Shown here piece by piece: positions 8,011 to 31,870 of a stretch of DNA of 64,000 nt. Each line of letters begins with the position of its first letter. Position 1 is the first letter of the stretch. The notes under the pieces were generated by a model. That model was given only the letters and a program-made list of their open reading frames with translations, searched no databases and was not told the origin of the DNA. Made by a program: the position numbers and the translations under genes. This stretch comes from Agrocybe praecox. Taxonomy: Eukaryota > Basidiomycota > Agaricomycetes > Agaricales > Agrocybaceae. The DNA lies in NCBI GenBank assembly GCA_964017145.1, contig OZ024841.1:3906001-3970000 (forward strand), read 5' to 3'.

Positions 8011-9044
8011 GGCGGTGTATGTGTGTCGTCCTCCTGCCTCGCCGCCACCACCAGCTCGTGAGTGGGAATGACTTGAAGAAGAATATTGGCCGCCAGTGCA
8101 AGCGAAGTGGACCGGTAAGAGTGATAAGATGAACTAGAGACGGACATCCAAGGCGCTCGAAAGTTCCATGTCTCTCAGCAACTCTCCCATCCTTTGTTCC
8201 CCGTTGTCACTTCACGATTCTCGTCCTTCCAGAAATAGCTTTCACGTCCTTCTCCATTCTCTTCGTTGCGTCATGCGTTTCGTGTACGTCCTCCGACGCT
8301 TTCGTATCTCTTCTGTGATGACTCGCCCGTTCAGAAACCTGACGCGTAGGATTCAAATCGAAAGAAAAGAGCCGAGGATAAAGAATGACAGAGACAAAGT
8401 TATGGTCGGATACGAACGTACATGATGCCATGTCGGGTTAGGGTTCGGATCAAAACCCGTGTCTTTCCGTCGGACCGTTCATTCATGTCTGTCCGTTCAT
8501 CATCTATTTGTCGTACATATGAATCTTATTCGTCGCTGTTTGGTAATTGTGATCCAATGCGACCCTGTGCGTGCCGTTTCTTCATGTTCTCTTTTCTTTC
8601 GTAAAGGTTCACCTCGCTCTAAATGTGCTCCGGTCTCTGCTCGATGGTATCTTGAGCCTTTGTCGTTCATCGGCTGCGTTACCGCCCTCATTCTCACCTT
8701 TTCCCCGTCGCTGGTTCAATAATTGGTCTCCTGAACGTGTAGGTGTCGCTCGTCTGTTCCTCTGTGTTGGCTCGCTTGTCTTCAATGATAGTCCTCTCTC
8801 CCCTTTAATCACTTCTTTCTTATTTGCGTCGCCCTCGCCCTCATTCTTGTATCTGTACGGCCGTATCCGCATCTAAATCAATATTTTCCCTCCCTGTACC
8901 GTCTCTTTCTCTTGTTACTTTTTATCAAGACGTTACATAGAATCTGCGGCTGGCAGTCCAGCACCTTCGTGTGTTATTTGTGGTTTCCTTTCATATCTAT
9001 TTTTCTATCCTTGCTCTGTCGCTTCCGTTTGTGCTCTGTCTGTG
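8011..9044. other. Intergenic, between kinase remnant and NACHT A
   Basis: No gene seen. It resembles about 19.0-20.05 kb. It is pyrimidine-rich on + from about 8460 and carries one copy of the recurrent motif at 8432-8456. Confidence 0.6.
8432..8456 (+). repeat. Recurrent array motif, copy 2
   Basis: Exact match to TCGGGTTAGGGTTCGGATCA followed by AAAAC. The preceding 100 bp (GCGTAGGATTCAAATC... then a purine-rich stretch) is also conserved at 19.34 kb. Confidence 0.65.
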
Positions 9045-9260
9045 GATTCAACCAAAGACATTATTTTTAGCGTCCTAAATTTGACACGACTAATTATAAG
9101 TTCAACGCGCTTTTGGACAGATTTAACAGTGGAAACTGCGCACGTGTATTCGGCAATGTGATTCACCGTGAGGCAGTGAAGGACAATGATTGCCCTTGAC
9201 CGGTCTTGACCTGCTACTTGACCCTGTTCTTTATCCTCCCTCGCAAGTCGTTTCTCAGAC
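9045..9260 (+). promoter_or_regulatory. Conserved upstream block of NACHT A
   Basis: The block from 9045 to the ATG is nearly identical to 21732-21939 before NACHT B, including CCAAAGACATTATTTTTAGC, CACGACTAATTATAAGTT and GTGAGGCAGTGAAGGACAA. Such conservation amid diverged flanks suggests promoter and 5'UTR. I saw no equivalent before gene C. Confidence 0.6.
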
Positions 9261-11839
9261 ATGTCTGAAATACCACCATCTGCCACACCTTTCTTTGCCT
9301 CTTCGAACGTCATCATCACTGGAGGATCGTTGACGATGGATAACAGTTCGACCCATATCCACACTGGGGAGAAGAGTAAGTATGCCCCGCCATATAGCGC
9401 ACACATCTTCTATATGCAATATTATTTTTCAGGTGGATACGATCGTTTAGTTGCAGCTGTCGCACCCAATGCCCTGCACGACTCAGGTCACATTGTCGAT
9501 CCTCCGAAATGTCACCCAGGCACGAGGGTTGCGATCATCCAAACACTCGTAGACTGGGTAGCAGGATCGGATGTACAAAACCGCGATAAATTCATCACAT
9601 GGGTAACCGGAGGCGCAGGGGCTGGCAAATCCGCTATCGGAAGAAGCATTTGCGAACGCTGCGCCGAGGAGGGAACATTGCTCGCCAGTTTTTTCTTTGG
9701 CGCGAACGATTCAACGCGGAATAACTCCAAATCCCTCGCACCAACAATCTCGTATCAGATCTGTGCTTTAAGCCCGCATATACGCAGGCTCGTGTCCGAT
9801 TTCATCGACTTCGACCCGCTCATTTTTACGCGGTCTTTGCTGACCCAATTTAAATCGCTCGTCATGGACCCGCTATTGGCAAACTATGCCAATTCCCCAC
9901 AAGGCGCACCCAAGCTAATTGTTGTGGATGGTCTAGACGAGTGCGTAGACCCGCCGAGCCAACGGGATATATTGGATGTTTTACATTATGTCGTCACCAC
10001 TTCCCCAATACCGGTTCGCATTCTTGTCTTGAGCCGTCCGGAGACCAATATATCCACCACATTTAATTCGCTAAAGTTGAATTCAACATTATTCAAAGTA
10101 TTCTTGGGAGATGACTATAGTTCGCGTGATGATATTCGGCACTATCTCTGCGATAAATTTGCCGAGCTTCGCGAAGGACACATATTCAGGGCTTCCATAA
10201 CTTCCTCTTGGCCGACTGAGGACCGGATCAGAAATCTCGTTGACAAATCTTCCGGCCAGTTTGTGTATGCAAAGATAGTCATTGGATATCTCAATTCTCC
10301 CCGTCATCGGCCTCATCAGCGTCTGGATGCTGTGCTTGGCCTCCGCCCTCCTTTCAAAGGCCTTCCTTTCTCCGAACTTGATGCTCTGTACACCCACCTA
10401 CTGAAGAGCACAGAAGAACCATTACTCTCTGCAGATATAATGGCATTCCTTGCCTTATATGATGAGATCACTCCCTCTGTCATTGATGTATATCTCAATC
10501 TCGAGGATGGGGCAGCAGAGGTTGTGTTGTCTGATCTCACGGCCATTGTACAGATGGATAATCAAATAGCAGTTCTGCTTCACAAATCCTTTGGAGACTT
10601 TCTATTTGATGCACACAGGTCAAAAGACCTTGCAAAAAATAGAGCAGAGACACATGCAGGGCATCTTGTCCAATTAATTGATATTTTCTCAGGTCAGAAC
10701 CTTCATCATCTCAGAAAAGTGTACTGTCATTCTCACTATATTATACTGCTAGAGGGATACAATGACTCACGATGCCCATCTGATCCAGAAGGCAGAACTA
10801 TACTCATGCCTTTTTATTTGAAAATCCCAAGATATGAATGGTTTGAATGCAGCTATTCAGAATTTTTTATTGCCATGAGCAATTTCCCAATGGAGTTTTA
10901 CTGCAAAAGTCTTTTTCATCAGCAGCATTGGGAAAGAGTGGAAAATGATTTTCTTCGCAGCCTATTTAGAATCATGTTTGATCTTGTAAGGACTTCTACA
11001 TTTTGATTTGTCTAAATCTTTACATGCCTTTCTTTCTTTAGAAGGCAGATGAACATCTTGCAGCAGGCATCTATCACAACCATGCTCTGACATTTTTCAA
11101 CTTGGCCCTCTTTGAACTTCATAACCAATACAGCAATGATTGGGAGGTGCATTACATCTTTGCTGTGTGCCACCTTGAGATACGTCGGTATGTGCATGAT
11201 TTTTCACCAAAAGGTCTAGGAAGTGCATTTTATAACATTGGATTCCATCCCACATTCTCGATCTCTCTCGGTGATGATGAGAAATCACTCATAATATCCA
11301 AGGCGGCAGTATATCGTCTTACCTTTTTGGTTGATACTTCACTCACAAACCAAGAGGCTGAATTACACCTTCAATTACATTGGGTTGATAGGAAAAAACG
11401 ACAGACACGTCCCTGGAAGTGGCATAGGCGAACATCATCACACAACCTGACAAACAAACTTTGTTTTTTTCTTCCAAATGACTGGGGAAATCCTCCTCTA
11501 CGTTTATTTCCATACACAGAGATCCTTTATACAATTAACCCAAGAATCTTCCCGCTGCAATCCATCCAGGAACCGACAAAATTAATGCTCAAACGAGGTA
11601 AACCAGACCAACAGTTGTGGGAGAAATACATGATGTTCCTGGAGGTTCTTCCTCAGATACTTCCACTGGCGGCCAAGTTTCCTGTACTTGTTGATCTTTG
11701 CAGAACTAAATGTTTTGCAAAGATGTCAATGTTCTTCCCCCAACTCAGCTGTCAGGCCCGTCGAGCAATGAATGCTTACCTTGATCGAGTCGGGGCTGGG
11801 TTGGACGATGATATCCATGCTGCATGCCAAGCTGACTAA
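9261..11839 (+). CDS. NACHT-domain NTPase (NLR-like), gene A
   Basis: Exons 9261-9375, 9433-10985 and 11042-11839 close to 821 aa. Both introns are GT-AG; the first is 57 bp, so it also reads through in frame. Residues 16-36 carry a Gly-rich beta-type motif (VIITGGSLT). The NACHT domain follows, with Walker A GGAGAGKS at 98-105, Walker B LIVVDGLDEC near 200-209, and a sensor-like RILVLSRPE. A helical region follows, then an unrecognised C-terminal domain of about 266 residues with RPWKWHRRTS. There are no WD40, ankyrin or TPR repeats. Fungal NACHT proteins are signal-transducing NTPases linked to non-self recognition and cell death; the role here is inferred. Gene B is the closest relative. 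Confidence 0.9.
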
Positions 11840-14800
11840 ACGTAATTGTAATTACATTTGTGCGTCTTTCAGTGAATATTTACTGATACTCTGTATGCAG
11901 ATTCATGACATTACCTCTTACCTTCATCTTTCCGTCCTCGCTCCATCCTTTCTGTTTTCGTACTGTATGTTCCTTCCCTTCTGTTGATAACCTTTTGCGC
12001 ACCCTTTGGTGTCGTGCCTTTCTTTGCCGTACTTTTTTCTCTCTCCCATCGTCGTCATTGCGTCACATGGCATTCCCTGTCCGTGTTCCGCTCGTTGTTT
12101 TTTCATTCACTTGTTCATTCTAATCCAAACGTTGTCGTCCAAACACGAGACATGATTTTGTACTTTTACTATTTTGATATCTATATGTGTGTCTTTCCAA
12201 TACGTGTGTACATACATACGAGAACAAATTGAGTGAGTTGATGGAGCCAATGATGAGTGCTGGATACTTTAATGTGCTTATACCGGTGTTTGTGTCATTG
12301 TTGTCGATGCAAGAGGTACAGGAAGCGAGCAAGGGAGGGAGAGAAAGGAAATAAAGAAGGGCAAGGATGAAAGTGAAATGGAAACGATACGAATAACGGA
12401 AGGAAGCAAGGGAGCTTAGAGAGTGTGAAATGGAAAGAAGGGAGGAGAAGAAGAGAGGGAAGCGAAAATAACGCAGAAAGATAAGTATGTAATGGAACAG
12501 AAAGCAAATGGGGACGTATGGAGGAACAACACACGCTGAGATATGACAATTGAGAGCTTGAGAGCTTGAGATGTGGAGGGCGACAGAAAGGAGAGAAGAG
12601 AGAGAGAGGCAAGATGGTATGGACGGATATGCAACGGCAGGCCACTCTCGACGGATCGTTGATATGGATAACGAGTGATGTGGAGTGGGGATGGGGGTGG
12701 AGAGGTGGGAAAAGACAGCGTAAGACAGAACTGAAAAAAAGAGAGAAAGAAGAGAACAGACCAAGAGTAATGAACGCAAATTGGGATGCGCGAGGAAAAA
12801 GGTGCGTCTGATATAACCAAATCAGCGTACTCCGAGCGCGTATTCGTCTGTTTGGTCGCTCTTGCTAATTTTTATTACGCAGTTGGTTTATTAGTGATAC
12901 GAGAGGCAGGGAGAGGTCTGTAAAGACGTGGAGCAACGACGAACTGGAGAAAAGAGAGAGGAAATACTACGGAGAGTGTTCATCCAACCAGTGCACAAAG
13001 GCGATCACAGCGCATGTGGGCCCGAATATTCCTTTCCTTTCGAGCGCACGGTTTTTTGTCCTCTGATACCTTTCAACACCCCTTCTCCAATACAATTTTT
13101 CCAATGACCTACAGAGCGGCTCGAATTGTATCGTTCAGTACTTCACAGGTTGAGGTCGTACTGAAAGCTCGAGAGACGGAAGGCGAGATGGGAGGTGCAT
13201 GACGGCAAGTCCGTCTTCTGCTGAGACCGTTCGAGAATGTATTGCACTGTATCCAGAATAGCGAGCGAGAGGGAGGAAGGGGAGTTTTGACGAATGACTG
13301 ATGGAAAAGATAGGAGCAAGAAATCCCATGAGAATGAGACCTTAAGCGACGGGGAAAGCGGTGAAGGGGAGATGAGAGAAGGATATGCAAGGACGAGAAA
13401 AGCTCGCAAACCCTGAAATTTGTAACAGAACAGCGTGGAGGGAGCTACGAACGACACATACCAAAAAAACACGACGCCCCCAGTGCGTCCGTCTCGCTGC
13501 AAAGAATGTTGCTTCCGTCGATTCCATTCTGTTACGTACGTCACCCTCCGATGATTTCATCCTCAATGAAATCCCCGTGCAGAAATATGACACGTACGAT
13601 TCAGAGACCAGTGTGTATATGGACGAAACTTGAAGAGAACGTATGGAAAGACTCGAGGGAGAGGAAGAAGGAACACGACGCGAACATACGCGATAGCATG
13701 TCGGGTTAGGATTCGGATCAAAAACTTTCGGGGTTCGTATTTCGTTCGTCGTCGTTCCGTGCAGTCCCAGGCCCATGTTTGTTCATTGTTCCATTCCCAT
13801 CCATGTTCAAATTTTCAAACGTTCGCCTTACTCTTCCTCGGTTTCTGCTCAGCGGTCAATCAATTGCCATTTTCCATATGTTTTTCCATCCACTTGTCGC
13901 AAAGTTCATGGTGTCCTGCCACCCGCCAGTACTTAGATCAACCCTTTCCATCGTCCCACCTCCGGTGCCAAAGAAACTACCTTCGTTTTATCACTGTCAC
14001 GCAACGAAATAATCTCCTCTCGCTGTTTTACCTCTCGGCTAGGCGTATCTGTTGCTTGTCTTTCCTGTCTTTTTTATTTATTTAACATCCGGCCCTTTCT
14101 TTGTGGTTCTCCACCTTTCGGCTTCTCGCCTCTATACCGTCACCCATTTCACACTTCCCCTCCAAACCTCACCTGTCCTCATCCATTTCTTGGTATGTGC
14201 ACATCCGCATCCTTATTCGCATCAATCTTTTCTCTCCCCAGAGTATTTCATTTCCTCTACACACCTCACCTACTGTTGAAAAATATATCCTGTCTGCACG
14301 AAATATAGTACCTATTCGTCTTTTCCATCCCATCCATTACATAAATTTTTAATCCTCTCTCCCTCGCTGCAGTCTCTCTCCCTTATTTTAAGTTTTTATC
14401 CAATCTGTTCGTCCTATTCCCTTCCTTTCTCCGTCTCCGCCTCCTCACCTTCCTTACGATCACTTAGATCCATCAATATCTCTATATACTTGGTATGTTC
14501 GCATCGCGGCTGTTCATGTATGGTTCGTATCTCGCCTCCTCACACTTGCCTGCCCTCTACTAGGCTCTCTGAGTTTCTGCTCGATGACCTCCTGTGTATA
14601 TGCTGTTTTCCATCTTTATATCCTTCCACACACCCCACCATTATCCGTCCCACGTCTCCCAGCTCGTTTCATCACCCTCAGATGCCCGCTTCTTCGCTAT
14701 ACTATTTTTCCCATCTCGCCCCATTGCTTGCTGTCGCGTTTGTCATTTGCGTATATATGCGCCAGCATGAAACAGGCACCAATAACCACCTCCCCCTCTC

Positions 14801-16814
14801 TCCTCCTTGGCGTGACACGGGCTCGTACGATGCCATCCTCTTCTTTCGTATGTATTTTCATCTCCCCAACATCTTCTGTTCAATCTATTCTGGCACTCTC
14901 ACTAGGCTATGCTCCATCTCTTCACCCATATCGTTCTCTCTCCTGTAATCCATTCACTTCTCGCTTCTTCTTCTCGATCACCCAATGTTTGTTTTCGCAG
15001 GATCGAGTAACATTCATCTTTTCCTTCCTCTCGTCTCGTCTCACATGTCTCGTCTCTCGTGTTCCGCATTTCTTCATTAATCTGACACCTCATCATTTTT
15101 CTCGCACATAATTGCACATCCTCTGTACCACGTATAGTGACATGCCATATAAACCTTCAACCAAAGTGCTTTAAAAAAATTCATAGACCAGCTTCTTCAT
15201 TCCAGCCTTACATGTAAAAAAAAGAAGATAACATTCGCAACGTTAACCGTACTCGACAACAGACAGACAGATAATCAAGACAGAACTCGACTTCGACGAG
15301 AAAGAGCTTTGACTCGTGAGATGATGAAATAAGAATACGTCGCAGGCGTGGATTGGCATTGAGTTGAAGATATTGGGCTGTTGTGACCGGTGGAGCGAGT
15401 GGGCTAGGGACGACGACGATGGAGAGGCGTAGGTGGCGCCGGTGAATTCTGGGACGCAAAGGACGTTGAAAGTGGCACGAAATTTCAGACGAGGGAAAAT
15501 CAAATAGGAGTTTATAAGAAAACCGAATCAGAGAAGTATTAGGGTATTAAAAATTAAAAATTAAAAAGAAGTAGTAGGTATATTATACGCAGAAAGAAAT
15601 CGTGTTGGAATGATGTCAATAATGGATGCGGAATTGTTGACTTATGCGGACGACGGAAAGTACTAAGGAAAGAAAACAAAAAATGAATATCATGAGAAGA
15701 AGAAATAAATGAAACATTTAAGAGAGAGAAGCAAAAAGGAAGAAAAAGGAACGAGAAGAAAAGTCCGAACTACGGTACAGACATGAATAGTTTTGTTGGA
15801 AGAGAGGCAGGAAACAAAAAGAAATCAAGAACGGACAGCAAGGTCCACAAGAACGAAATCAGAGACATATATTGAAAGAGAAAGAAAGATAGGAAAAGAA
15901 AGATAGAAGAGAAGCGAAACATAGAAAAACACAAAAAAGAGAGAAAAACAGACAGTGGAAAACAAAAATCCGGCCCCAGATTTAGAAAAGTACGGAGATC
16001 AAGCGCGTCGCAGAAAACAGTTTGAAAAAAATAGACCTCGCCTCTCTTCCCCAACCACAGCTGGGATCACCGACTATCCTATCCATCGCCCCAGATCACC
16101 TATCCCTCCTAGGTCCGACGATTTTATATCCATTTTTCGCCCTTTTCCGACCAGGAAGTGCTAGATTTCCTTCGCCGATCCCTATCCTTTCATATGTCGA
16201 TCGAATGCCTGAGGCAACATCATCGAATACCCAAGGAATCCGACAGTCCGAAATTACGAATGAGTCAGAACGGAATGTGACGTGGCAGCGCACGCAAGTC
16301 TCGTTATAAGGGTATAGCGAATGTGTTCGACGTTGCAGGAGTTTATGAATGCGTATGTGCGTGTGCGTATATGTAGGCATGATTTAGGCATAAACATAGG
16401 TCATGGATGGACGATGGATGGCATAGGTGCATAGATAACGACGACGACGACGATAAATAGATGATGGTGAAGGATGAGAGAATTTGGCATCATGGGTGAA
16501 ATGGCCTATTATTGGCGATCCTGGGGTGTTGGTAAGGAAATATATATATTGTTCATTCGCCACCTAGGCACGAGCAGCTGAAAGGTCCACAGTGCACACA
16601 CCTGAAAAAGGGAATATATATATAATCAGTTTATATGTTCGATGGCCCGGACAAAAGGTAAAAACACGAGGAAAATAAATTGAAAAGATGCTGGGTGTTG
16701 ATGTAAGAGCTCAGTCTCGACACCAGCAGAAAATGCGGATCGAAAATAACGAAGAAGAAAAAGAAAAAGAAAAAGAATCGAAGAAAAGAAAGAAAAAAAG
16801 ACGTACTGCCTCAA
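11840..16814. repeat. Array repeat segment 2 (non-coding, low complexity)
   Basis: No gene seen. 11.84-12.25 kb matches 25.12-25.53 kb and looks like the 3' flank of the NACHT genes (shared TTTGTGCGTCTTTCA and AATATTTACTGATACTC). 12.3-12.8 kb is purine-rich, 13.7-15.1 kb pyrimidine-rich, and 15.48-16.02 kb purine-rich on +, repeating the order of segment 1. Reading frames of 130-220 codons on the opposite strand are composition artefacts. Confidence 0.7.
13701..13724 (+). repeat. Recurrent array motif, copy 3
   Basis: TCGGGTTAGGATTCGGATCA plus AAAAC, with one base differing from the commonest form. The upstream stretch CGTACGATTCAGAGACC is shared with about 26.81 kb. Confidence 0.6.
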
Positions 16815-18993
16815 CTCCTCAAATTCCCTTCAACCATCTATATCCACACTATACGTATCATTCGGTGTATGCAACCTCATCAGCTCGACACCGAATCGCA
16901 CACCATCTCTAGCGTCCTGTGATGGATCGTCATATGCCGGTCCCACCACGCCAGAACCACAGGCAGCGGTGAGAGGGGATGACGCTGGAAGAAGCTACCA
17001 GCCCAGCCGTGGGGCACAAAGGTTCAATGTTCACTAGCACTGACGACGACGGAATGTTCGTCATCGGATGCTAGCGGCGTGTTTGAGGGACCATGGGATG
17101 ACGTGGGAGGAAAACCCGACGCAACTTCAGACAATTGCCTCCTCATCAGCAGCCCACGAAACATCCCGCACGTCGAGGCTGTGAACAAACAAGACGAAGA
17201 GGGAAGTGGTAGTCCAGGCTTATCGACGCCGTTGGAAGCTGCACTGCCCACCCTCGAAGTCGAAGTGGTAACCACCACCTGAACAGGAGGAGCGGCAAGG
17301 TTCTGCTGCTCTTTGCCATCCTGCTCGCCAGGTTGACGGTGCTGATCAAAGCGGACTATCCCCTCTTGTACCCATTCGCAATAGGTGTCTCCGTCTGGGT
17401 AGGCGTACTGTCTTTATCGACATCTGAGTCCTCCATGCTGAGCGTAACAGGATACGAGAAGCAAGGGTTTCCCTGCCCTTCGACTTGCTCCTGAGCCACT
17501 ACTTCGCCTTGCTCGTCAACGCATGCCTACCAGCCCTCTCGCTAGCCGTCATCGGCACATAGCCAAAGTCCTATGAAGGAGGCGGGACCGTGGCCCAGTT
17601 CGCAGCTGAAGACGAGGGGCAAGAAGGAGCAGCAGGGTGTGATAACGACGCAGGCGCGTTGGAAGTAATAGCTGTCAAGCGTGCTCCTGCACCCAGAGAG
17701 AATGCCATGGTGCTGGCCATCGGTCGTCGTAAACTGGCATCGATGTTCTTTGCTGTAGCTGGTACGGTGGTAGTATTACCCTCATGCTGGTGCTGGGGGC
17801 TGGGGGTAATGCACTCGGAACCGCAGGCGCACGATAAGCCGTCGGTGGCGCTGGTGCTGCTGCTAAAGGAGGCAGGCCAGGCACGGCCATCTCATCGGTA
17901 GCACTGTTCATGCTCCTCCTTCTCCTCCTTGGGACCAGTAGACTCCTTGGGCCTACCCCGACTCGGCTGCCCCGTTCCTCGTTCCTTCAGCTCCGGATCG
18001 TATTCGACATGGATGGTATGTCTGAAGGTTGCTATTTTGTAGTGTAACTGGCTGAGGTTTGTTACCAACCGGCTTGGAAACGAACAGAGGATGGAGAAGT
18101 GAGGAGCGATACAGAGGGGTCGATAGGAACGCCAATAACGGGTGCCGAAGGTGAATTTTCATAGGGGTGTTCCAGTTAGGTCGAACGGCTCCAAATGGGC
18201 GCGGGTGCGGTGGTGCTGGTCTGACCAGCGACGGCGGTGGTAATAATCGGTGGGACAGCATTGAACGACACCGACCTCTCACTTCTCGCCCCCGAACGAT
18301 GGCTCTGCGATGTACAATGTTCTTTTGGTTTGTACCAGACACCCGAGATGAGTTGGGAAAATAGTTTTGCTGAATCTTTTTCGCCCAGATATCGGTGCGT
18401 GAGGATGTGGTCGAATAGTTCGCCTCCAAAGGCGTATTCGAGGATAATCCCGATGTAGTTGTCGGTTTCGATGATGCCGAATAGTCAGAAAATTTGAGCG
18501 TCTGCGAATGGAGGGCAGATTAGTTAGTAAAATAAATTTGTAAAGCACGATGGCAGCGATTCGTAAATAGAAAGAAATTGTTGCAAATGGAGGTTTAGGA
18601 CAAAAGGAATTGGAATATTTATTCGCGGTTGATAGCGTTGAATGCAAGGGATGGCCCACGGGCCTTACGTCATCCCAGAGGAAAGGAAAGGATAGGAGTG
18701 AGAAAACATACCTTTGGTCTGCAGGAACAAATACGGTCCAGATTTGGGGATGGTTAAGCGTGGATGAGCAGCCGCTTGAGCTAGGGCAGCTGGGTGCGCG
18801 TAAACGTCCGATATGGGTACCTGGGCAAGCGCTGCTGCATTCGCATTCCCGCCGGACTGATTCGAGTTGGGATGTGCGTCCGCTGGCTGGCTTTGTTGGT
18901 GATCCCGCTGGCCCGAAGAGTGGCGCGTTTCTGTTGGCGTCTATAGGATGAGCTTGGAGGCGCTGGTGGGCTCTGTATTGGGGGTATTGGCAC
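16815..18993 (-). pseudogene. Decayed CAMK/Kin4-like Ser/Thr kinase, copy 2
   Basis: A minus-strand homologue of the 5.0-8.0 kb remnant, starting at an ATG at 18993 with the same Pro/Ser-rich N-terminus (SPPAPPSSSYRRQQKR). The Gly-rich loop is cut short after FLQTKG, the hinge and early C-lobe survive (ILEYAFGGELFDHIL, LFSQLISGVWY), and the sequence again jumps from there to the tail, so HRD, DFG and APE are absent. The KA1-like end near 16.92-16.82 kb (VRFGVELMRLH, NDTYSVDI) stops early. The shared core deletion suggests the gene was already broken when the unit was duplicated. It is divergent from NACHT B. Confidence 0.72.
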
Positions 18994-21731
18994 GGCTTAG
19001 CATGTGTGTCATCCTCCTGCATCGCAGCCGCCAGCTCGTGAGTGGGAATGACTCGAGGAAGAATATTGGTGCGCTGCAAGCAAAGTGGGCCGTTGGGTGT
19101 GATAGAGATGGACCAGACATGGATGGACTTATACTGGGCTCAAAAACCATATGATGTCTACCATATATCAGTTCCGCGTTTCTCATTCATCTCTCTCAGT
19201 CTCACCATATCACTTTGTCCTCCGAGTTCCATCCCCCATCAGAAACCTCCGAGTTCATTTGCGTCGTTGTGTTACGCGTTTCCTTTCGTTCAATGTGCAC
19301 TTCGATCCTTTCATAACTCTTGCATAATGACAGGCCCATTTATCAACTTGACGCGTATGATTCGAATTGAAGAAAAAAGTCGAGGAAAAGGAAGGAAAGA
19401 GACCAAGTTATGGTCGGATACGAACGTACGTGATGCCTTGTCGGGTTAGGGTTCGGATCAAAACCCACATCTTTCCGTCGGATCGTTCTGTCCTTTCATC
19501 GTCGTATGAGTCCTGTTTGGTATGTTCTCTTCGTTTTCTTAAACGTTCACCCCGCTCTAAGTGTGCTCCAGTCTCTGGTCAATGGTATATTGCACATTTG
19601 TCGTTAACGTTCATCGGTATCAATCACCTCTCTGCGGTTTATCTTCACCGTCCCTTCCGCTACCGTCCTCTCCTCTGACCTCTCTTTCCACTTCGTTATC
19701 GCTCTTTCTTTTCCATTTCCTTCACTTCTAACTGATTTACTTCCTTCTCTCGTGATGACCCTCTCATTTTGCGCGTTTTCCTTCCACTGAGTTCGAACAT
19801 CCCACTCCTGCTTTGGTTTCTGGTCAATGGCCTCTTAAACGTATGTCGTTAGTCGGCTTCCTTTTCTGCTGTTGCGCTCATGGTATAGAGATCTGTTCTT
19901 TGTCTTCATAATTCATCGTCTCTCCCTTTCGAACATTTTTTTCACATTTGTCTCCTATACACCCGCATCTGCATCAATCCTTTCCCTCCCGATAGCGTCT
20001 CTTGTTCCTGTTACTTCTCATCAAAATCTTGCATAAAATCCGTGGTCCAGTCCACATGTCACTTGACACGTACCTGGTTGCTGTTGTGCAGTTTTATAGA
20101 TCATTGGCTCTCCTTCGCGATTGCCTCTTCTATCCATTCTTCCATCCTCGCTTTATTGCTTACGTCTTTGTTCCAATGCTTCCTCCGCCCCCTACCGTGC
20201 TCTTCGTTCCATTACTTTCCTTTCCTCTGTCTCTCTCACAGTCTTTTCCCATTTGATTCAATCTATTCTGTCTATTCCCCTCTTCTGTTTAGGCTACTAT
20301 ATCGTTCTCCGCCCCCCATTCCACTCCAATCACTTCCTCTACCTCTCCCCTTTTTTCCGCTTCGCGATCACGCCACTTGTTTTGCAGCATTCCTCATTCC
20401 CTTACCCCCACTCGTCTTACAGAGCCTCTCTCATCAGTATTTATATATGCAAATAAACTAGCCCATTAACGTTTAACGATAGTCGAAAGAGGTAGATCGA
20501 AGATATAATGAGTCCTTCAGGTTGCTTTCATCTGTGTCCGCCTTCTCATTTGCTTTCTATCTTGTCTTTTGCCTGCAGACAGCTTCCTCGCTCCCTCTGC
20601 GACCGACCTCTTTTTCAGTCATCAGATAAACTCAGACGTGTCTCATTGATATCGGTATATGAATTATCGTTCAAAAGTGCTCGTGCTCGTGCCGGAAATT
20701 TTGGTCAAGTCTCGAATCTCGACAAAGTTCCCCCTCTGTCTGACCTCCGCTCTTCAAAATTCATCAATCATCGGGTCCCATATACAGAATTCGCTTACTC
20801 GCTCCCTCCTCGTGGAAAAGGGATAAAGAGACGGAAAGGAAAGGAAAAGGAGAGCAGGGAGTAGTAAAGTGAGAGAAATGTCATCGGAGGAGAGGTGAGA
20901 ATTGAGAAAGGGAAGCAGAAAGGAGGAGGAAGTTCCTCTATCTCTGTGGGGAAGCAGAAAGGAATATGAGACCTCTATCTCTGTGTTTCCTCTTTCCGTT
21001 TCTTCCGATCTAATCATTTCCATCCTCTCTGTTTTCCCTTATCCCTATTTTTCTACGTATTCATCATCACGTGAAGGAATCAAGTACCATCGCTCATTTT
21101 TCCCATTGGCTTGCGATACTGCTATGCTTGTTCCTGTTTTGAATATGCATTTATGAGCCTTGAACGACGCACATTGAAGACCTAATTGTGAGTCATCGCT
21201 CGTCTCGTCTTTTGTCTCTTGTCTGTTGACTTTCAATTCCAACTCTCGTGCTTCATCTTTCGGTGCCTCCGCCCAGCTTTATTGCTCCCTCGAAGAGTAT
21301 AGGACCTACCGCCTTTAGCAGTCATCAAATATCAGTCCCGAACATTGAACAATGGTTAAATCATGTAAATACCAAATCTCTCGTGGTCGTGCTCTTGCGT
21401 TACCGTCTCATTTGGTATTTTCTTGTATCTCGACTCCGTCATTTCTCATCATTCACGTTTTGTCCGTATTCATGATATCCTATGACTGTCCTGCAGGATT
21501 TATCGATGACCAATTATTATCATTATATACGCGAATTACTTCACGCTGTCCCTTCCTCTCTCGTCTGCCATCTCGCGCACGTCTTTGTTCTATCATTCTC
21601 GCGGATTCGCTTTGCCAGTTTTACAAAAACATTAGGTAGCATCTGATGACAACATCGACTCCGCCCTCATATTCCACCTGGGCTTGCATTTGAGGTTTCT
21701 GTAAACTGATAATTATCAATTAGGGACACCA
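18994..21731. other. Intergenic, between kinase remnant 2 and NACHT B
   Basis: No gene seen. 19.1-20.05 kb matches 8.1-9.0 kb. 20.05-21.7 kb is additional pyrimidine-rich DNA, partly similar to 28.1-28.8 kb (a shared GAGCCTTGAACGACG stretch), and accounts for most of the larger gap here. Confidence 0.6.
19441..19464 (+). repeat. Recurrent array motif, copy 4
   Basis: Exact TCGGGTTAGGGTTCGGATCA followed by AAAC, with upstream context like copy 2. Confidence 0.65.
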
Positions 21732-21939
21732 GATTCAACCAAAGACATTATTTTTAGCGTCCTAAAATTGGCACGACTAATTATAAGTTTAACACGCTTT
21801 GGATGGATTTAACGTGGAAACTGCGCACGTGTGGTCGGCAATGCGATTCACCGTGAGGCAGTGAAGGACAACGATTGCCCCTGACCTGCTACTTGACCCT
21901 GTACTTTATCCTCCCCCAACGTCAGCTTGTCTCGCAAAC
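21732..21939 (+). promoter_or_regulatory. Conserved upstream block of NACHT B
   Basis: Near-identical to 9045-9260 before NACHT A and running up to the ATG. A short deletion (about 10 bp) within the GATTGCCC-to-TGACC part is the main difference. Confidence 0.6.
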
Positions 21940-24538
21940 ATGGATATACCACCGTCTGCTGCTGGATCTCTCTTTCCGTGGTCGAAGGGCATCATCACTG
22001 GAGGATCATTTACGATGGAAACTCACCTTCACACTAGCGAACGTAGTACGTATGCCATACCATACCACACACACATTTCCTACATATGATATTATTTCTC
22101 AGGTGGATTTGATCGTTTGGCCGCCGCCGCCGCACCAAATGCTCATCACAACTCTGGACACATGGTAGATCCTCCGAAATGTCACCCAGGCACGAGGGTT
22201 GCGATCATCCAAACACTCGTAGACTGGGTAGCTGGATTGGACGAACAAAATCGCGATAAATTCATCACATGGGTAACTGGAGCAGCAGGAGCTGGCAAAT
22301 CCGCTATCGGGAGAAGTGTATGCGAACGCTGTGCCGAGGAGGGAATGCTGCTTGCCAGTTTTTTCTTCGGCGCGAGCGATCCCACACGGAACCACTCAAA
22401 ATCCCTTGCAGCAACAATCGCGTACCAGATCTGTGCTGGAGACTCAAATATCCGCAAGCTTGTCTCTGAGTTCATCGAACGTGATCCGCTTATTTTGACG
22501 CAGACTTTGAGAACACAGTTCACGGCCCTTGTCATGGAACCGTTAAAGGCAATCTACGCCAATTCACCTCAAACCGCACCCAGGTTGATTGTCCTGGACG
22601 GTCTAGATGAGTGCGTGGATCTAGCAAGCCAGCGAGATATACTGGATACCTTATATCATGTTGTCACCATTTCCTCCATCCCAATTCGCATTCTTGTTCT
22701 GAGCCGTCCAGAAAGCAACATATCTAGCACCTTCAGCGGGGCAAAAATAAATTCAACACTTTTCAAAATCTTCCTCGGGGATGAGTACCATCCGGATGAT
22801 GATATTCGGCACTATCTCTGCGATAAATTTACTGAGCTTCGTGAAAAACACATATTCAAGGCTTCCATACCTCCTGGTTGGCCGACTGAGGACCAGACCA
22901 AAAAGCTTGTGGACAAGTCCTCGGGTCAATTTGTCTATGTGACAACAGTAATTGGATATCTCAATTCTCCGCGTCATCGGCCTCATCAGCGTCTGGATGC
23001 TGTGCTTGGCCTCCGCCCTCCTTTTAAGGACCTGCCTTTTGCAGAGCTTGATGCTCTTTATACACACTTATTGAATAGCACAGAAGATCCATCACTATCT
23101 GCAAATATAATGGCATTCCTTGCCTTGTATGATGAGATCACTCCCTCTGTCATTGATGTATATCTCAATCTCGAGGATGGGACAGCAGAAGTTGTGCTGT
23201 CCGATCTCACGGCCATTGTACGGATGGTCACATACCCACATTTGCCTGCATCTCAAGAAGCAGTTCTGCTTCACAAGTCCTTTGGTGACTTTCTATTTGA
23301 TGCTCACAGGTCAAAAGCACTTGCAAAAAATCAAGCAGAGATGCATGTGGGGCATCTTGTTCGATTAATTGAAATATTCTCAGGTCAGAACCTTCATCAT
23401 CTCAGAAAAGCATACTATCCTTCTGACTACATTGTACTGCTAGAGGGATGTAATGGCCCACGATGCCCATCTCATCCAGAAGACGATACTATACTCAAGC
23501 CTTTTCGTTTGAAAACCCTCAAATCTCATTGGTTTGAATCCAGTTATGCAGCATTTCGCATTGCTGTGGGCAATTTCCCCATGGAATTTTACTGCAAAAA
23601 TCTTTTTCAACAGCAGCTTTGGGAAGAAGTGGAACATATTTTTCTTTCCTACTTGTTTGGAATCATGTTCAATCTTGTAAGAACTTCTACATATTTATTT
23701 GTATGGAAAGCTAAATCTTTGCATGGCTTTCTTTCTTTAGGAGCATGATGGGCATTTGGCAGCAGGCACCTATCACAACCATGCTCTAACATTTTACAAC
23801 CTGGCCCTTTTTGAGCTTGCCAGCCAATACAGCAATGATTGGGAGATGCATTACATCTTTGCTAGATACCAGCTCCAGGTACCAGGTCCTCATGTTCGAT
23901 CAAAAGGTCTAGGAGAAATCTTTTATTACCTCAGTGAATTCCGGGATACACTCTTGAACTTTCTCAGCAATGAAGAAAAATCACTTATAATATCCAAAGC
24001 AGCAGTCTATTTTCTTAATTTTCTGGTTGACGCTTCACTTACAAACCAAGAGGCTGAATCACACCTTCAATTACATTGGATTGATAGGAAAAAACAACGG
24101 ACACGTCCCTGGAAGTGGCATAGACGAACATCATTACATGACCTGCCAAACAAATTTGTTCTTCTTGGTCGCTACTCCTCCAGCTATATCTATTGTGTCT
24201 CTTTAGTTCCATACACAAAGCTCATCAATGCGCCTGTCTCATGGGAAATCCTTCCAGTGCAATCTGTGCAGGAAGCAACACAATGGAAACTTGGATTATT
24301 TAAACCAGACCAGCAGTTGTGGCACAAATACAGGGAATTACTTGAATATCTTCCTCAGATACTTCCACTGGCAGCCAGGTTTCCTGTACTTGTTGATATT
24401 TGCAGAACTAGATGTTTTGCAAAAATGTCAATGATGTTCCCAAAACTCAGCCGTCGGGCACATCGAGCAATAACTACTTACCTTGATCGTGTCGGGGCGG
24501 GGTCAGATGATGCTATCGATGCCTCAGGGGACAATTGA
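21940..24538 (+). CDS. NACHT-domain NTPase (NLR-like), gene B
   Basis: Exons 21940-22045, 22103-23676 and 23741-24538 close to 825 aa, with the same intron positions as gene A. The ATG at 21940 gives an N-terminus with the shared motif (GIITGGSFTM). Walker A is GAAGAGKS, Walker B is LIVLDGLDEC, and the sensor-like segment is RILVLSRPE. The C-terminal domain again carries RPWKWHRRTS and the helical LPLAARFPVLVD stretch. Relative to gene A it has a slightly longer loop after the DLTAIV sequence. A 65 bp stretch at 22166-22230 is base-identical to gene A while neighbouring codons differ. No disabling mutation was found. Confidence 0.9.
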
Positions 24539-26906
24539 AGGTAATTATTTTTTCGTACTCCATTCGTCCAATATGTACTAATATATTTAGTTAGCAACTC
24601 GTAGAGAAGGGACGAGAGGTCTCGTGGGGTTAGTGGGAAGTAAAGAATGATTGATTGAGAAAGTGCACGAAGTAAATATTAGGACAAAGAAAAAGAAACG
24701 AAGAGATGCAAAGGAATATCGAAATTGATGAATGCGTTTGGCGAGAGAGTGAGAGGGCGAACATTAATAACAGCTGAGACAAACAAGTGAGAAAGAGAAG
24801 GGTGAAAACAGAGAGATGGGCAGGGGTGGAAGGACTCTATACTACGTAATAAGGATGCGGTGGAAAAAAGGACTGGATGGCACAAGCTGAGCGCTGAGCG
24901 TTTGAGAGATAGGAAAAGGACGATGCCTGACGGCAAGTAAGTTTTTCCAGTGAAGAGGATAGGAAGGAAGACCGGAAGACCGGATTGGGGAGAAGCAAAA
25001 GAGTAAGAGTAAGAGGTGGTGAGAAAGGATGAGACGGAGACTGAGAGAGAGGGCGATGGAAGGAGTGAACAGAATCAGAGAGAGAAAAACAGATGTGAGT
25101 ATTTGCTAGTGCCGTACCTAAAGGTAATTGTGATAATATTTGTGCGTCTTTCACCGAATATTTACTGATACTCAGTGTGAAGACCCATGATGTTACTACC
25201 TCTTACCTTGATTCTTGCATCCTTTCTACGTCCCTTCTTTTTTTATACTGTATGTTCCTTCCCTTCTATTGATAACCTTTTCCACACCCTTTCGTATCGC
25301 GCCCTCCCTTACCGTACTTTTTTTTTCGCTCCCATCGTCGTCATTGCGTTGCATGGCCTTCCGTGTCCGTGTTCCGCTCTTTATTTTCTCATTCACTTGT
25401 TCGTTCTCATTTAAACATTTTTGTCCAAACACGCAACATATTTTTTGTATTTTTGCTATCTTGATATCTATATTTGTGTGTTGCCAATATGTGCGTATGT
25501 ACATAGGGAAATGAATGGAATGAATTGGTGCTGCCAATGATGAGTCCTAGATACTGTAATGTATTTATACTGGCGTCTGTGTTATTGACGTCAGCAAAAG
25601 AGGGACAGGAAGTAAACAAGGGAGGCGGAGAAAAAAGAGGAAGAAGGGCATGGAAGGTAACGAGACGGAAACAAGACGAATGACAGAAGGAAGCAAGGGA
25701 GCTTAGAGAGTGTGAATTGAAAAGAAGGGCGAAGAAGAAGAGAGGGAAGCAAAGATAAAAGGATAGTAAGAAATTGGGGATAGACAGAGGAATAACACGC
25801 ACTGAGATATGATAGTTGAAAGCTCGAGAGGTGGAGGGCGAGAGAAAGGGGCGAGAGACGAGATGATATGGACAGATATGCAACGGCAGGCCATCCTCAA
25901 CGGATTGTCGATATGGATGACGGGTGATGTGGAGTGGGGGTGGGGGTGGGGGTGGATAGTAGGTAGGAAAATACAGTGTAAGATAGAACTGAAAGAAAGA
26001 GGCAAGAGGAGAACAGAGTCAATCTGGATCAGCGTACTCCGAACGCGTATTCGTCTGTTTCTGGTCGCTCTTGCTAATTTATATTACGCAGTTGGGCTAT
26101 TGGTGATACGAGAGGCACGGAGAGGCTTGGAAAGGCAGGCAGAGACGACGAACTGGAGAAAGGAGAGGGAACATAACGGACAGTGCTCACGCAACCAGTG
26201 TGCAAAGACGATCACAGTGCATGTGGGCCCGAATATTCACTTCCTTTCGAGTCCATAGTTCGTTTTGTCCTCCGATCCAATTTAACAACCCTTTTCCAGT
26301 ATTGGTTCTCGAATGACACTACCGAGAACAGCCCCAATTGTACCATTCAATACTTCACATGTCGTACTGAAAGCTCGATAGACGGAAGGCGAGATGGGAG
26401 GTGCATGGGCAAGTACGCCTTCGGCTGAGACAGTTTGAGAATGTTTCATACTGTATCCAGAAGAGAAATCGAGAGGGAGGCAGGAGATTTTTGACGAATG
26501 ACTGATGGGAAAGACAGTAGTAAGAAGTGGTGCCACGAAAACAAGACCTTAAGCCTTAAGCACTGGGGAAAGTAGAGAATGAAAGATCAGACAAGGACAG
26601 GAAAAGCTTGAAAACTCTAAAATTTGTAACATATAGCGTGGAGGGAACGACGACCGACACATACCGAAAAGCCACAGACGCCCCCAGTGCGTCCGTTTCT
26701 TGCTATAAACAATGTTGCTTTGAATTCCATTGATTCCATTCTGTTATGTACGTCACCCTCTGATGATTAAATCCTCAATGGCACCCCCGTGCAGAAGCAT
26801 GACACGTACGATTCAGAGACCTATGCGTCCAGAGATGAAACTTAAAGAAAACGTATGGAAAGGCTCGAGAGAGGAGGAACAATATGCGAACGTACGCGAT
26901 GCCACT

Positions 26907-26937
26907 TCGGGTTAAACGTTAAGGTTCGGATCAAAAC
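26907..26937 (+). repeat. Recurrent array motif, copy 5 (with insertion)
   Basis: TCGGGTTA then an inserted AACGTTA, then AGGTTCGGATCAAAAC. The insertion splits the core but both halves are kept. Confidence 0.55.
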
Positions 26938-27367
26938 GTTCGGGGTTCGTCTTTCGCTCGGATCGTTCAATCATATCCCTCTGTCATGCGCGTCATGCTC
27001 TCTATTCGTCGTCGTTCCGTGCAGTCTTCTTCAGGTGCATGGTGGCTTTGTAAAAAATCGGAGTGTAGAGAGCGACGTACGATGCTTACCGGAGAGCCAT
27101 AGACGCATCCAGTGAGTAGTAGATCCCTTGCTATAAACGATGATACCTTTCCCTTCAACTCCTGGATTCCGCTGATTTATATACACGTACGTCCTCCGAT
27201 GATATATTTCTCCCATGAAAGCCGCTTTCAATAATATTACCCGTACGGTTTGTAAATAAGTATTATAAGGGCAAAAATTGAAGGAAAGATTTTGAAAATA
27301 TTCGAGCCTGGAGAGAAAGGAGAAGAAAAAATATAGTCTGGCAGATACGCACATACGTGATGGCATG

Positions 27368-27390
27368 TCGGGTTAGGTTCGGATCAAAAC
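27368..27390 (+). repeat. Recurrent array motif, copy 6
   Basis: TCGGGTTAGGTTCGGATCAA plus AAC, one base shorter in the G run. Only about 450 bp from copy 5, so this segment carries two in a row. Confidence 0.55.
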
Positions 27391-28960
27391 GTGTTTCGGT
27401 GCTGGGGGCCGTTATGCATGTTCGCGTTCGTCTTTCCCGTCCGGCCTTTGTGTGTTAAATTCTTCGTGTTTGGGGCATTGCTAGGTTTACTTCCATGAAA
27501 GGTCGAGCTCAAGCTCAAGCCCTGTATATGCGTCGTCGTTTTGCGTTGGATCGCCCATCTTCGTGCCTTGCCTTGCCTTCCGCTTCGTTGCATATTCGCC
27601 TTACTCTCGCTCGGTCTCTGCTCCCCGGTAAATGGTCTATCGTTTCTCAGCGACTCAGTATAATCCTCCCTCAGTTTCCACACACCACCAGGATCAATCC
27701 TTTCCACGTCCGACTTTCGGTGACCAAGACCTTGTCTAAGACTCTCCGTGGCTGGTCTTTCTCTTTTGCAATTCCTTTTTTTTCACCCGCACATATGTTC
27801 GTAGCTCCTCCATATCCGAGTCATACTTCCCCTCAAGCTCTCTTTTCCCCTGTTCTTCTCCTCTCCTGAGCGTGTTTATTTTGCGTGTGTCGTCAGCCAG
27901 CCGAACTTCTCTCAATTCCCTTTCGTGGTCGTCCCTCGCTCTTCCGATGACTCCTTCCTCGCTTTACTACTCGCTTCCCTGCTTTCTCTTCTCGTGTCTC
28001 TCTCTTCCTCTCCCACCTTCTCTTCCGGGTTCTTGATATTGTGCATCCGGATTCGCAATAATTTGAATTTTTTCCTGTGCACATCTCTACTATGTGCTTC
28101 TCACAAAGAAGATTGCACACCTTGCACACTTCTTTCCCGTCCTCGTCCCCGTCCTCTTCCTCGTATTTGTACCTGCTCCGCGATTGTCTGTCACTTTCGT
28201 TCTATTATCTTCCCTCCACCCCTTCCGCTTGCGTTTGATCTGTTCCCTCTCCGAGCCAATCAATTCTCTCCCCTGTCTTTCTTCGTCATTACCTTTATGA
28301 TCACTTGAAGGATTCAAGTTGTTGTATTCTTCATTTTCTTCCTTCTCCTGCTGTACCTCCATTCTTGATCTTCATACATGTATATATATATATGAGCCTT
28401 GAACGACGAACATCGAAGAGCTAGATGTATGCAGTCATTTCGTCTCTTGTCTCTCTCTTTTCTATTTCCCTCTTTTCGTCTTTCACCTCTAGGCACCTTT
28501 CTCCCTCCCTCTACGACCTGCCGCTTTTATCAGCCATCATACATCGGTCATCAAATCTCAGACGTCTTTCGTTGATATTCGTAAGTATATGAACGGTAAT
28601 CGGTAAACGTCAACTTGAACGTTTAACGATTGTCGAACAGCGTTTATCAACGAGTCTCCATCGTACTCGTGCGTTGACATCTCATTCGCGTCTTGACTCT
28701 TGACTCTTGCATCGGCTGCCTCCCTCGTTTCTCGTCCTTTGACTGTCTCCTTGTTCCTTCTATGGCCGGTCTCCCACCTTCATCAATCATCATGTATCAT
28801 GAGAATTATTGTCAGGCACTCTCTTTTCGTCCCTCCCTTCCTTCGCCTCTTTAAGTTTTCTCCGTTCGAACATTAATTACCCAATCCTCTTCCGTTCACA
28901 CAGATTGCTGGCGTATCATTTCCCGTTCTGCCGCTTGAGGCTCCCGTAGCGTTCTTGGAG

Positions 28961-29285
28961 CTTCTCGTACTATACGGCAAGTTTTTCTGTTTTTATTTTT
29001 ATTTTTTTATATTCAATTCCATTCCATTATTATTAGCATTCGGCGTATTAGTACGCCCTGCCAGCCGGCCGGCCGGCCAAGCTAGGCTATACGAAACTAA
29101 TCTTATCTTCGAGCTTCCTCGCGAAACGAAATTCTCATGGATCCATCATCAATATTAACCAAATATCAGCGTATTGGTTCATTAAACCCGGCCGAAGAAG
29201 AGAAACTACATTTGTGCCCGATAACGAGCTCTGGTTATTAAGTATCAGTGTACGGTAGGTGAACGAAGCAGAGATATAATTACCT
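28961..29285. other. Inversion junction region next to NACHT C
   Basis: No gene seen. It holds a T-rich run near 28.98-29.01 kb and a CCGGCCGGCCGGCC run near 29.07 kb. The direct-orientation repeats end here and the inverted gene C begins just beyond. Confidence 0.4.
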
Positions 29286-31870
29286 TCAAGCATCCACTGC
29301 GGAACCGACATCATCATCCAACCCCACCCCGACTCGATCGAGGTACGTGTCTATTGCTTGACGTGCCTGACGGCTGAGTTGAGGGAACATCATCGACATT
29401 GGCGCAAAGCATTTTGTCCTGCAAAGATCGACGAGTAACGAAAACCTCGCAACAAGCGGAAGTATCTTGGGAAGTTGCTCCAACATTGACATATATTGGC
29501 CCCACGATTGCCGTTGTGGAATTTCTATCCAAAGCTTCCATTTTGTCCAATCCTTGATGGATTGGTATGGGAAAATGTTGAATTCGACCCAATTAAAGAG
29601 CTTTGCGTATCGCATGGTTTCGATATGTAGGCCCCTCGGGAGAAGAACAAGTTGGTTTGCTAGGACACGCGATGATGTCCGCCTATGCCACTTCCAGGGA
29701 CGCGTCCGTCGTTTTTTCGCATTGATCCAATTTAATTGAAGATGTCGATGAGCCTCTTTGTTTGTAAGCGAGGCATTACACAGGAAGGTAAGACAATGGA
29801 CCGCCGCTTTGGAAATTACGAGTAATTTTTGCTCATCACTGAGAGGTATTGAGAATGTGTCATGGAATTGAACAGAATAGAAGGTATTATCTAGACCGTT
29901 TGAGCCAGCAAAAACCCGAGATGATCCCTGAAGCTGGCGCATAGCGAACATATAATTGACCTCCCAATCATTGCTGTATCTGTTAAAAAGTTCAAAGAGA
30001 GCCAAGTTCCAAAAAGTCAAAGAATTGTTGTGATAGAAACCAGCTGGAAGATGCCCATGTTTCTCCTAAAAACAAAAATAAATGCAGGGATTTAGCTTGA
30101 CATCCGAATCACTACGTGGAATTTCTTACAAGAGCAAGGACAATTTCAAAAAATTTATGAAGAAATGCATTTTCTACTCCCTCCCAATGTGGGTGTTGAA
30201 AAAGATTCTTGCAGTAGAGATCCATTGGAAAATTTCTCACAGCATTGATAAATGCTGCATAAGTAGACGCGAACAAATCAGAGGAAGAGATAGTCGGGTA
30301 AAAGTGATACAGAGGATTTAAAGAGAAGCGAAAGTGGTAAGGGAACTGTATACCATGATATCCCTCTGGCACTACGATGTATTCAGTACATTGGTGTATT
30401 TGTGAGATAATTAATGTTCTGACCTGAGAACCACTCCATGATTTGTACAAGATGTCCTACAAGCGTCTCTTCTCGGTTTTTGGCCAGGGTTTTTGATCGA
30501 TGAGAATCAAATAAAAAGTCCCCGAGGGACTTGTGAAGAATAAAAGCAGAACATTTGGGAGGATCTTGATAGGTTTTCATTCGTACGAGGGCCGTAAGAT
30601 CCGACAACACAACTTCTGATGTCCCGTCTTCGAGATTGAGATATTTATCGATATGCGGGGGAAGCATGAAATTATATAACACAAGGAACGCCAATATATC
30701 GCCGGATAGCAATGGATCATCAGTGCTATTTATCAAATGTGTATAAAGAGCATCGAGCTCCGAGAAAGGCAGGTCTTTAAAAGGAGGGCGGAGGCCAAGC
30801 ACCGCATCCAGACGCTGATGAGGCCGGTAACGAGGTGATTGCACGTATTCAACTACTGTAGTTGCGTAGATGAATTGACCAGAGGCCTTGGACACAAGCT
30901 TCCGAATCTGGTCCTCAGTAGGCCAATGGGGAGGTATGGAATCCTTGAATGTGTGTCTTTCATGAAGCTCGGTAAATTTATCGCAGAGATAGTGCCGAAT
31001 ATCATCACCCGCACTATACTCGTCCCCAAGGAAGATTTTGAAAAGTGTTGAATTTATTTGCACCCCACTGAAGGTGCTGGATATGTTGCTTTCCGGACGG
31101 CTCAAGACAAGGATGCGAATCGGGATTCGGGAAGTGGTGACGACGTAGTGTAGGGTATTCAATATATCGCGCTGCATTGCTAGGTCCACGCACTCGTCTA
31201 GACCGTCGATGACGATCAACTTGGGTGCACCGTGAGGAGAATTGGCATAACCTGCCAAAAATGGGTCCATGACAAGAGACGTAAACTGCGCCCGTAATGA
31301 CCGACTGAAAATCAGCGGATCGAAGTCGATGAACTCGGAGACAAGCCTGCGAATGTGTGGGCTTAAAGCACAGATCTGATACGAGATTGTTGATACGAGG
31401 GATTTTGAGCTATTCCGTGTCGGGTCGTTCGCGCCAAAGAAAAAACTGGCCAGCAGGGATCCCTCCTTTGCGCAGCGTTCGCATATGCTTCTCCCAATCG
31501 CGGATTTCCCCGCTCCTGCGGCCCCGGTTACCCATGTGATAGATTTATCGCAATTCCGCTCGTCTGTTCCTGATATCCAGTCCACAATTGTTTGGATGAT
31601 TGCGACCCTCGTCCCTGGGTGGCATTTTGGAGGATCGACTACATGCCCAGAGTCATGCAGGGCATTGGGTACGGCAGCTGCAGCTAGACGATCATACCCA
31701 CCTGAAAAATATCTATAAACGAGGTGGGCGCTAGATACTAAGACGTACATACTCTTTTCCCTAGTGTGAACATGTGTGGAACGGTTGTTATTGATCGTGA
31801 ACGATCCTCCATTGATGACGGCCCTCGACGACGGAAAGAAAGACCCAGAAGTTGCTGGGCTAGTAGGCAT
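29286..31870 (-). CDS. NACHT-domain NTPase (NLR-like), gene C, inverted
   Basis: Model on the minus strand: exons 31870-31753, 31701-30424, 30371-30130 and 30065-29286, closing to 805 aa. It has the shared N-terminal motif (AVINGGSFTINN), Walker A GAAGAGKS, Walker B LIVIDGLDEC, RILVLSRPE, and the C-terminal RPWKWHRRTS domain. The intron at 30423-30372 does not exist in genes A and B. Without it, a net two-base deletion ends the frame at TPMY; with it, GT-AG boundaries are good and the frame is restored at the cost of about 17 residues after FSGQ. Either the gene is a frameshifted pseudogene or the new intron rescues it. RNA evidence would decide. Confidence 0.8.

Follow-up and report, generated by a model that had tools for sequence, protein, structure and literature searches.

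A NACHT gene array of more than 800 kb with decayed kinase remnants in the mushroom Agrocybe praecox

We analyzed a stretch of 64,000 bp of the genome of Agrocybe praecox (assembly GCA_964017145.1, contig OZ024841.1, positions 3906001-3970000), hereafter called the window, which carries three genes encoding proteins with a NACHT ATPase domain and holds the right-hand end of an array of such genes exceeding 800 kb. The assembly comprises 59.2 Mb in 347 contigs, which we designate by numbers; the contig of the window is C2, and coordinates given without a contig are those of the window. NACHT copy 1 (9261-11839, plus strand) has three exons (9261-9375, 9433-10985 and 11042-11839) and an open frame of 821 amino acids. 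Copy 2 (21940-24538, plus strand) has its three exons at the same positions, and its aligned codons contain no internal stop. Copy 3 (29286-31870, minus strand), at the very end of the array, is inverted and has a frameshift near 30,390. Both intron positions are common to the three copies.

The initial annotation described a 23-kb stretch in which a NACHT gene and a kinase remnant are repeated with a period near 12.7 kb. A BLAST comparison of the window with itself bears out this structure and gives collinear repeats outside the NACHT genes too. The region 9045-11820 is 79% identical to 21732-24522, the 3' flanks of copies 1 and 2 (11836-13748 and 25118-26960, both on the plus strand) are collinear and 76% identical, and the kinase blocks, in which the remnants sit head-to-head with the NACHT genes, match piecewise at 68-91% (3529-8480 and 15335-19488). 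Copies 1 and 2 are each preceded by a promoter block roughly 200 bp long (9040-9262 and 21732-21915, both on the plus strand, 88% identical). Of its 38 genomic matches, 34 are in the C2 array adjoining exon 1 of a NACHT gene. The 3' flank of copy 1 is similarly concentrated, with 53 of 56 match rows within the array (query included, best 40 of 87 candidates). The introns, upstream block, 3' flank and kinase remnant are thus shared by copies 1 and 2 as annotated, and their start codons (9261 and 21940) are in direct orientation exactly 12,679 bp apart. Copy 3 is indeed inverted, aligning at 29276-31851 with 73% identity, but the promoter block gave no match there.

The array is much longer than the 23 kb first delimited. 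A genome search with the NPHP3_N family placed all 150 scored candidates (the best 150 of 376) above the cut-off. Using exon 2 of copy 1 as a query, for which the best 83 of 392 candidates were scored and counts are therefore lower bounds, we found at least 39 NACHT loci in C2:3122959-3937699 (815 kb), with exon 2 identities of 71-100% (query included). Among the scored candidates, matches of at least 71% outside this array occur only on C5, C12 and C96 (three), and the next relatives, including one at the left edge of the array (C2:3105327), reach at most 61%. Along the contig, 30 NACHT genes on the minus strand are followed by eight on the plus strand and, at last, by copy 3 on the minus strand; tblastn gave no NACHT match in the 192 kb beyond it. 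The intervals between the starts of the 40 listed genes have a median of 16.5 kb (range 8.2-64 kb, 39 intervals). Ten of them lie at 11.9-13.6 kb, which makes 12.7 kb a common spacing but not a fixed period. In three pairs of units, the offset (321,730, 43,599 and 50,408 bp) stays the same over exon 2, exon 3 and the 3' flank, with near-equal scores. These coordinates point to recent duplications of large blocks.

One might ask if such an array was inflated by assembly errors, such as haplotigs or false duplications. The short contigs C96 and C27/C311 have near-equal matches to places of the array or of the kinase blocks and are either haplotigs or recent copies; the exon 3 matches of C96 are in fewer pieces than those of its counterpart at C2:3.375 Mb. 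However, the synonymous divergence (dS) between copies of the window and of the adjacent 80 kb is near 0.5, far beyond allelic error, and we regard this explanation as highly improbable. The genome has other dense groups of NACHT genes, belonging to other clades, at C3 0.50-0.78 Mb, C1 0.14-0.31 and 4.65-4.81 Mb, and C7 3.05-3.67 Mb.

The kinase remnants have an intact relative at the left edge of the array. Searching the genome with the KA1 family revealed three places, one of which (C2:3109559) lies in an open frame of 1257 codons with KA1 above the cut-off. In the region that we read (C2:3108001-3114500), this frame contains the motifs HRDLKLEN and DFG. Its relatives in agarics carry names such as CAMK/CAMKL/Kin4 or Pkinase, the nearest named one being from Agrocybe pediades (66-69% identity over 91% of the query). 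Given the complete kinase domain and the KA1 domain, the parent of the remnants is classed as a Kin1/Kin4-type kinase of the CAMKL group. We compared it with ten remnants, eight from a 144-kb stretch and two from further loci (L029 and L030), which are roughly 70-85% identical to it. Eight of the ten start at parent position 3114012-3114037, i.e., at about codon 26-30; of the other two, one stops at 3113927 and one is reduced to a 3' portion of the gene. A deletion in the kinase C-lobe could be tested in eight remnants, and in six of these the junction of this 636-bp deletion is the same within a few bases. The remnant upstream of copy 1 (3523-8131, minus strand), which starts at about codon 26-30, has a junction displaced by some 35 bp; in L029 a small inner piece is retained. 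Both remnants of the window lack the C-lobe. Decay is extensive: six remnants aligned in frame have 2, 5, 6, 8, 10 and 11 in-frame stops, with 10 in the one upstream of copy 1 and 11 in the one upstream of copy 2 (15272-19116, minus strand), which has the common truncation and deletion. Because most of the remnants share the 5' truncation and the 636-bp deletion, they appear to descend from a single damaged founder that was copied many times along with the NACHT gene.

The arrangement of the remnants is regular. The array has 21 matches to the kinase N-lobe (intact parent included, one overlapping row dropped), every one of which runs antiparallel to the listed NACHT gene closest to it; 17 lie upstream of that gene, including 15 at a distance of at most 5.6 kb. 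Matches to the N-lobe also occur on C3 (580147, 605027 and 777454). A head-to-head layout of this regularity, with a strongly conserved element of about 45 bp between remnant and NACHT gene, would be expected if the remnants served the NACHT genes as promoters, antisense transcripts or decoys. However, the coding parts of the remnants have decayed by stops and deletions, and the element is missing from the examined 5' region of the parent (with up to 6 mismatches allowed) and also occurs away from listed NACHT genes. We find such a role very unlikely.

The conserved element deserves a description of its own. Its core of 22 bp is CGGGTTAGGNTTCGGATCAAAA. It lies at the 5' side of all seven remnant 5' ends of the 144-kb stretch, and likewise in L029 and L030; in the window, it is found between the kinase remnant and copy 1 (8412-8456, core 8434-8455) and between the remnant and copy 2 (19420-19464, core 19442-19463), in both cases on the plus strand. 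Its second place is the end of a noncoding block, element X; if a NACHT gene precedes, the distance from the stop codon of that gene is 1.7-2.4 kb, as seen 3' of copy 1 (13680-13724, plus strand, core 13702-13723). The element hence brackets NACHT genes. The core has 119 matches in the genome at up to 2 mismatches, while the reversed pattern has none under the same tolerance. Of 100 listed matches, 72 are in the array, all on the strand of the surrounding NACHT genes, and 60 are perfect, 38 of them in the array. Seven kinase-side cores, taken from a scan tolerating up to 4 mismatches, differ at 3 of 154 positions when 23 differences would be expected at 15% divergence (p 5e-8): the element stayed nearly perfect next to a decayed kinase. 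Element X itself shows no coding pattern by eye, and 45 of its 49 match rows are in the C2 array (best 40 of 54 candidates scored). One copy (1790-2360, plus strand, 571 bp, rich in indels) ends in the 45-bp element without a NACHT gene directly upstream, and two diverged copies lie downstream of copy 2 (26600-27392, plus strand). In the vicinity of the element (12000-15100, 19500-20500 and 27400-29000), the plus strand changes from purine-rich to pyrimidine-rich.

We considered what the element may be. Scans of the window with Rfam at gathering scores and for tRNAs gave no match. An RNA gene is unsupported, since a permissive Rfam scan near one element gave a single chance-level miRNA match (16.5 bits for a gathering score of 65) and four RNA folds were no better than those of shuffled sequences (z from -1.0 to 0.7). 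A resemblance to the B-box bound by TFIIIC was dropped, the invariant A of the T-loop being missing from the element. The element could be a working cis-element that controls recombination, boundaries or expression, and NACHT cassettes would be duplicated and shuffled around it. Its conservation and placement speak for such a role, which we consider quite unlikely all the same; if true, the array of receptors would have a built-in device for diversification, resembling immunity cassette systems in purpose and not in parts.

The kinase fragment and the element together might instead constitute a dispersed mobile element that carries a gene fragment and spreads by itself, the array being just one of its homes. 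In line with this idea, kinase-block matches are found on nine other contigs (C1, C3, C6, C9, C10, C12, C13, C27 and C311), those at 1.28-2.0 Mb of C9 without any listed NACHT gene nearby. Perfect cores occur at places on C9, C10, C11 and C12, the element is present on contigs without a listed NACHT gene nearby, partly adjoining kinase remnants, and the remnants have a common 5' edge. Yet the strand and position of the N-lobe matches in the array are as expected if the fragment was copied with the NACHT unit. We identified no terminal structure and met no transposase, for which no search was made. Spreading of this kind is in our view unlikely.

The class of the NACHT proteins is clear from their domains. 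All three copies match NPHP3_N in Pfam (E of 6.8e-24, 9.2e-25 and 8.7e-26 for copies 1 to 3; 85-92 bits, cut-off 24.8) and the NACHT domain (29-35 bits, cut-off 26.7). The Walker A and B motifs are conserved and the predicted fold resembles that of signal transduction ATPases with numerous domains (STAND). Hence, they are assigned to the NACHT/STAND P-loop NTPases on the basis of sequence and predicted fold. Structural matches of the full model in the VIA rows cover mostly residues 62-362, and the 50 rows shown include neither Apaf-1 nor SAMD9, the top STAND rows of Foldseek. Only some tens of residues precede the ATPase region; no domain was found there, and residues 1-40 have low model confidence. 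A search with PF17111 gave no match, and neither did its controls. We call the genes NLR-like, and not NOD-like receptors (NLRs), because the C-terminal repeats of a canonical tripartite NLR were not found.

We computed omega, the ratio of nonsynonymous to synonymous divergence, among eight copies (seven for exon 3), whose median dS is 0.44-0.72. Its median is 0.16 in the NACHT core, 0.24 in exon 2, 0.45 in residues 430-556 and 0.50 in exon 3. A simple neutral simulation, assuming 0.25 and 0.22 substitutions per site, puts the expected number of stops per copy at 9.3 for exon 2 and at 5.5 for exon 3. We observed none in exon 2 of six copies and one in each of two, and none in exon 3 of all seven copies up to residue 811, copy 3 being broken by a frameshift and not by a stop. 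In the array, the match to exon 2 spans at least 507 of 517 residues in 33 of 39 members, and 28 of these lack in-frame stops. Most NACHT frames are thus held open by purifying selection, with the ATPase under the strongest constraint and the helical C-terminal exon under the weakest.

These data bear on the possibility of a selfish or passive amplification, in which an unstable block grows by unequal crossing over and the NACHT genes are weakly constrained, without a diversified role in recognition. There are in-frame stops in exon 2 of 8 of the 39 members, copy 3 is frameshifted, no window has an omega above 1, and the value of exon 3 is close to that obtained among the kinase remnants by the same method (0.49-0.72). 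Remnants compared with the parent give 0.34-0.44; both sets of values are biased down since the segments were picked by protein similarity. However, passive growth fits poorly with 28 complete, stop-free exons 2 at a dS near 0.5, with the lack of stops in exon 3 and with the strong constraint on the ATPase core. Hence, we deem it unlikely. Gene trees of seven copies suggest, in addition, that parts of the genes have different histories. The ATPase half rejects the trees of both other segments (approximately unbiased (AU) test, p 0.008 and 0.005), and exon 3 rejects the ATPase tree (AU p 0.047) and not that of the middle segment. This is modest evidence for exchange between NACHT copies.

To assess the turnover of such genes within a species, we used two strains (locus tags D9613 and CPC08DRAFT) of A. 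pediades, the nearest named relative in our searches. We compared 50 NACHT-family proteins of one strain with 54 of the other among the matches listed, a few of them without a listed Pfam domain, and kept only alignments covering at least half of the shorter protein. The best identity across strains has a median of 68%, and only one of the 50 proteins has a partner at 90% or more; both fragmented contigs and the restriction to the listed matches lower this figure, and for five proteins in two-member clusters at 90% a close partner may be hidden. A control kinase, the only gene used for this purpose, is 93% identical between strains with gaps counted, the loss being largely gaps at a difference in gene models. 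Hence, the NACHT proteins of the two strains seem to be almost without near-identical partners. The species also has dense NACHT groups by locus tag, e.g., on a contig of 330 kb where a run of 49 consecutive tags includes 14 of them. The kinase D9613_003682 shares a 3.9-Mb contig with the NACHT tags 003563-003592 and 004414-004623 and is at least 90 tags away from every listed NACHT, so these data do not indicate that the adjacency of kinase and array is ancestral.

Expansions and clusters of fungal NLRs are already known. According to the parts of the literature covered here, fungal genomes have up to 274 NLRs (Dyrka et al. 2014, PMC4986451). The proteins of that study share with ours the NACHT ATPase and the membership in a large agaricomycete family, whereas in ours no WD, ANK or TPR repeats were found, the helical C-terminal exon has no recognised fold, and one clade is concentrated at one locus. 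In Sordariales, the section covered reports 225 clusters with two NLRs and 47 with three to five, 16 clusters being made of paralogous copies, with less than 40 kb and fewer than 8 non-NLR genes between neighbours (Bonometti et al. 2025, PMC12258605). By the distance rule alone, 33 of 39 start-to-start intervals of our array are within 40 kb and the longest run has 13 genes, left-edge relative counted; six gaps of 41-64 kb split the array, unless unscored NACHT genes fill them. The locus of 39 members thus exceeds the largest cluster of that section, which has five. Clustered NLRs of Sordariales are thought to diversify by recombination, as may be the case here. The het-d/het-e NWD genes of Podospora, as far as described in the part covered (Paoletti et al. 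2007, PMC1805685), are also a paralogous NACHT family with exchange between members, but they diversify in WD repeats with positively selected residues, and we found neither repeats nor an omega above 1. Finally, the N-terminus may be set beside the N-terminal amyloid-like motifs NLR05/08/22/29/44 of agaricomycetes in the part covered of PMC9815663: it is short, which is common in Basidiomycota according to the same source, and has hydrophobic and glycine residues near the very end. In contrast, the G[DN] pair named by that source is not evident (GE in copy 1). No comparable array is described in the titles and abstract openings listed by our searches of the open-licence PMC literature.

The rest of the window has a few other repeats. 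Just past the end of the array (32800-34491), two inverted copies of about 330-350 bp, 91% identical and about 1 kb apart, contain 20-bp tandem repeats and resemble a small inverted-repeat element. There is a palindrome of 370 bp with arms 90% identical (37155-37524). Outside the array, the window's right half has a DNA repeat of 69% identity with an F-box frame and two frames resembling GDSL lipases (50067-50888, 52209-52847 and 56865-57689).

Taken together, we think it likely that this is an array of NLR-like STAND receptors that diversify as segments are duplicated, lost and recombined. The initial annotation proposed an evolving recognition cluster, and the word evolving is well matched by the array-specific clade, the intact copies beside broken ones, the block duplicates suggested by coordinates and the conflict between segment trees. 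Recognition is the most likely role on family grounds, where it is linked with cell death, and is an inference from what is known of the family. Several observations weigh against this interpretation. A complete, uninterrupted exon 2 is missing in 11 of the 39 members. For the frames of exons 2 and 3 in all three copies, Pfam gave no WD, ANK or TPR family at E up to 1, and the model of exon 3 has no match in PDB at E of 0.001 or less (31 Foldseek rows, best E 3.1), which alone excludes nothing. The N-terminal tail occurs in no separate protein, as all 44 genome matches of exon 1 are at NACHT genes, and no partner effector sharing the N-terminal motif was found in the genome at E 0.1. Positive selection was sought and no window of 30 codons has an omega above 1 (highest 0.95, at residues 601-630). 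The conflict between trees is modest, with low branch supports and a middle segment that rejects no tree.

The data show that a unit made of a NACHT gene and an adjoining kinase copy, already truncated and internally deleted, was copied many times. The kinase copies decayed and most NACHT copies stayed open, some being broken or partial and with gene parts of partly different histories. By analogy with the family, each protein would be a switch driven by ATP, with a C-terminal region that detects something foreign and a short N-terminal tail that relays the signal, possibly to cell death. The array would be a pool where recognition specificities are made and lost.

This analysis locates a very large expansion of NLR-like genes in a fungus, the unit of which it is made and the gene beside which it grew. 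The decayed kinase passengers provide internal markers of history in many units, with which birth, loss and selection may be told apart. The turnover seen across strains of A. pediades makes the question of recognition diversity in mushrooms directly testable.

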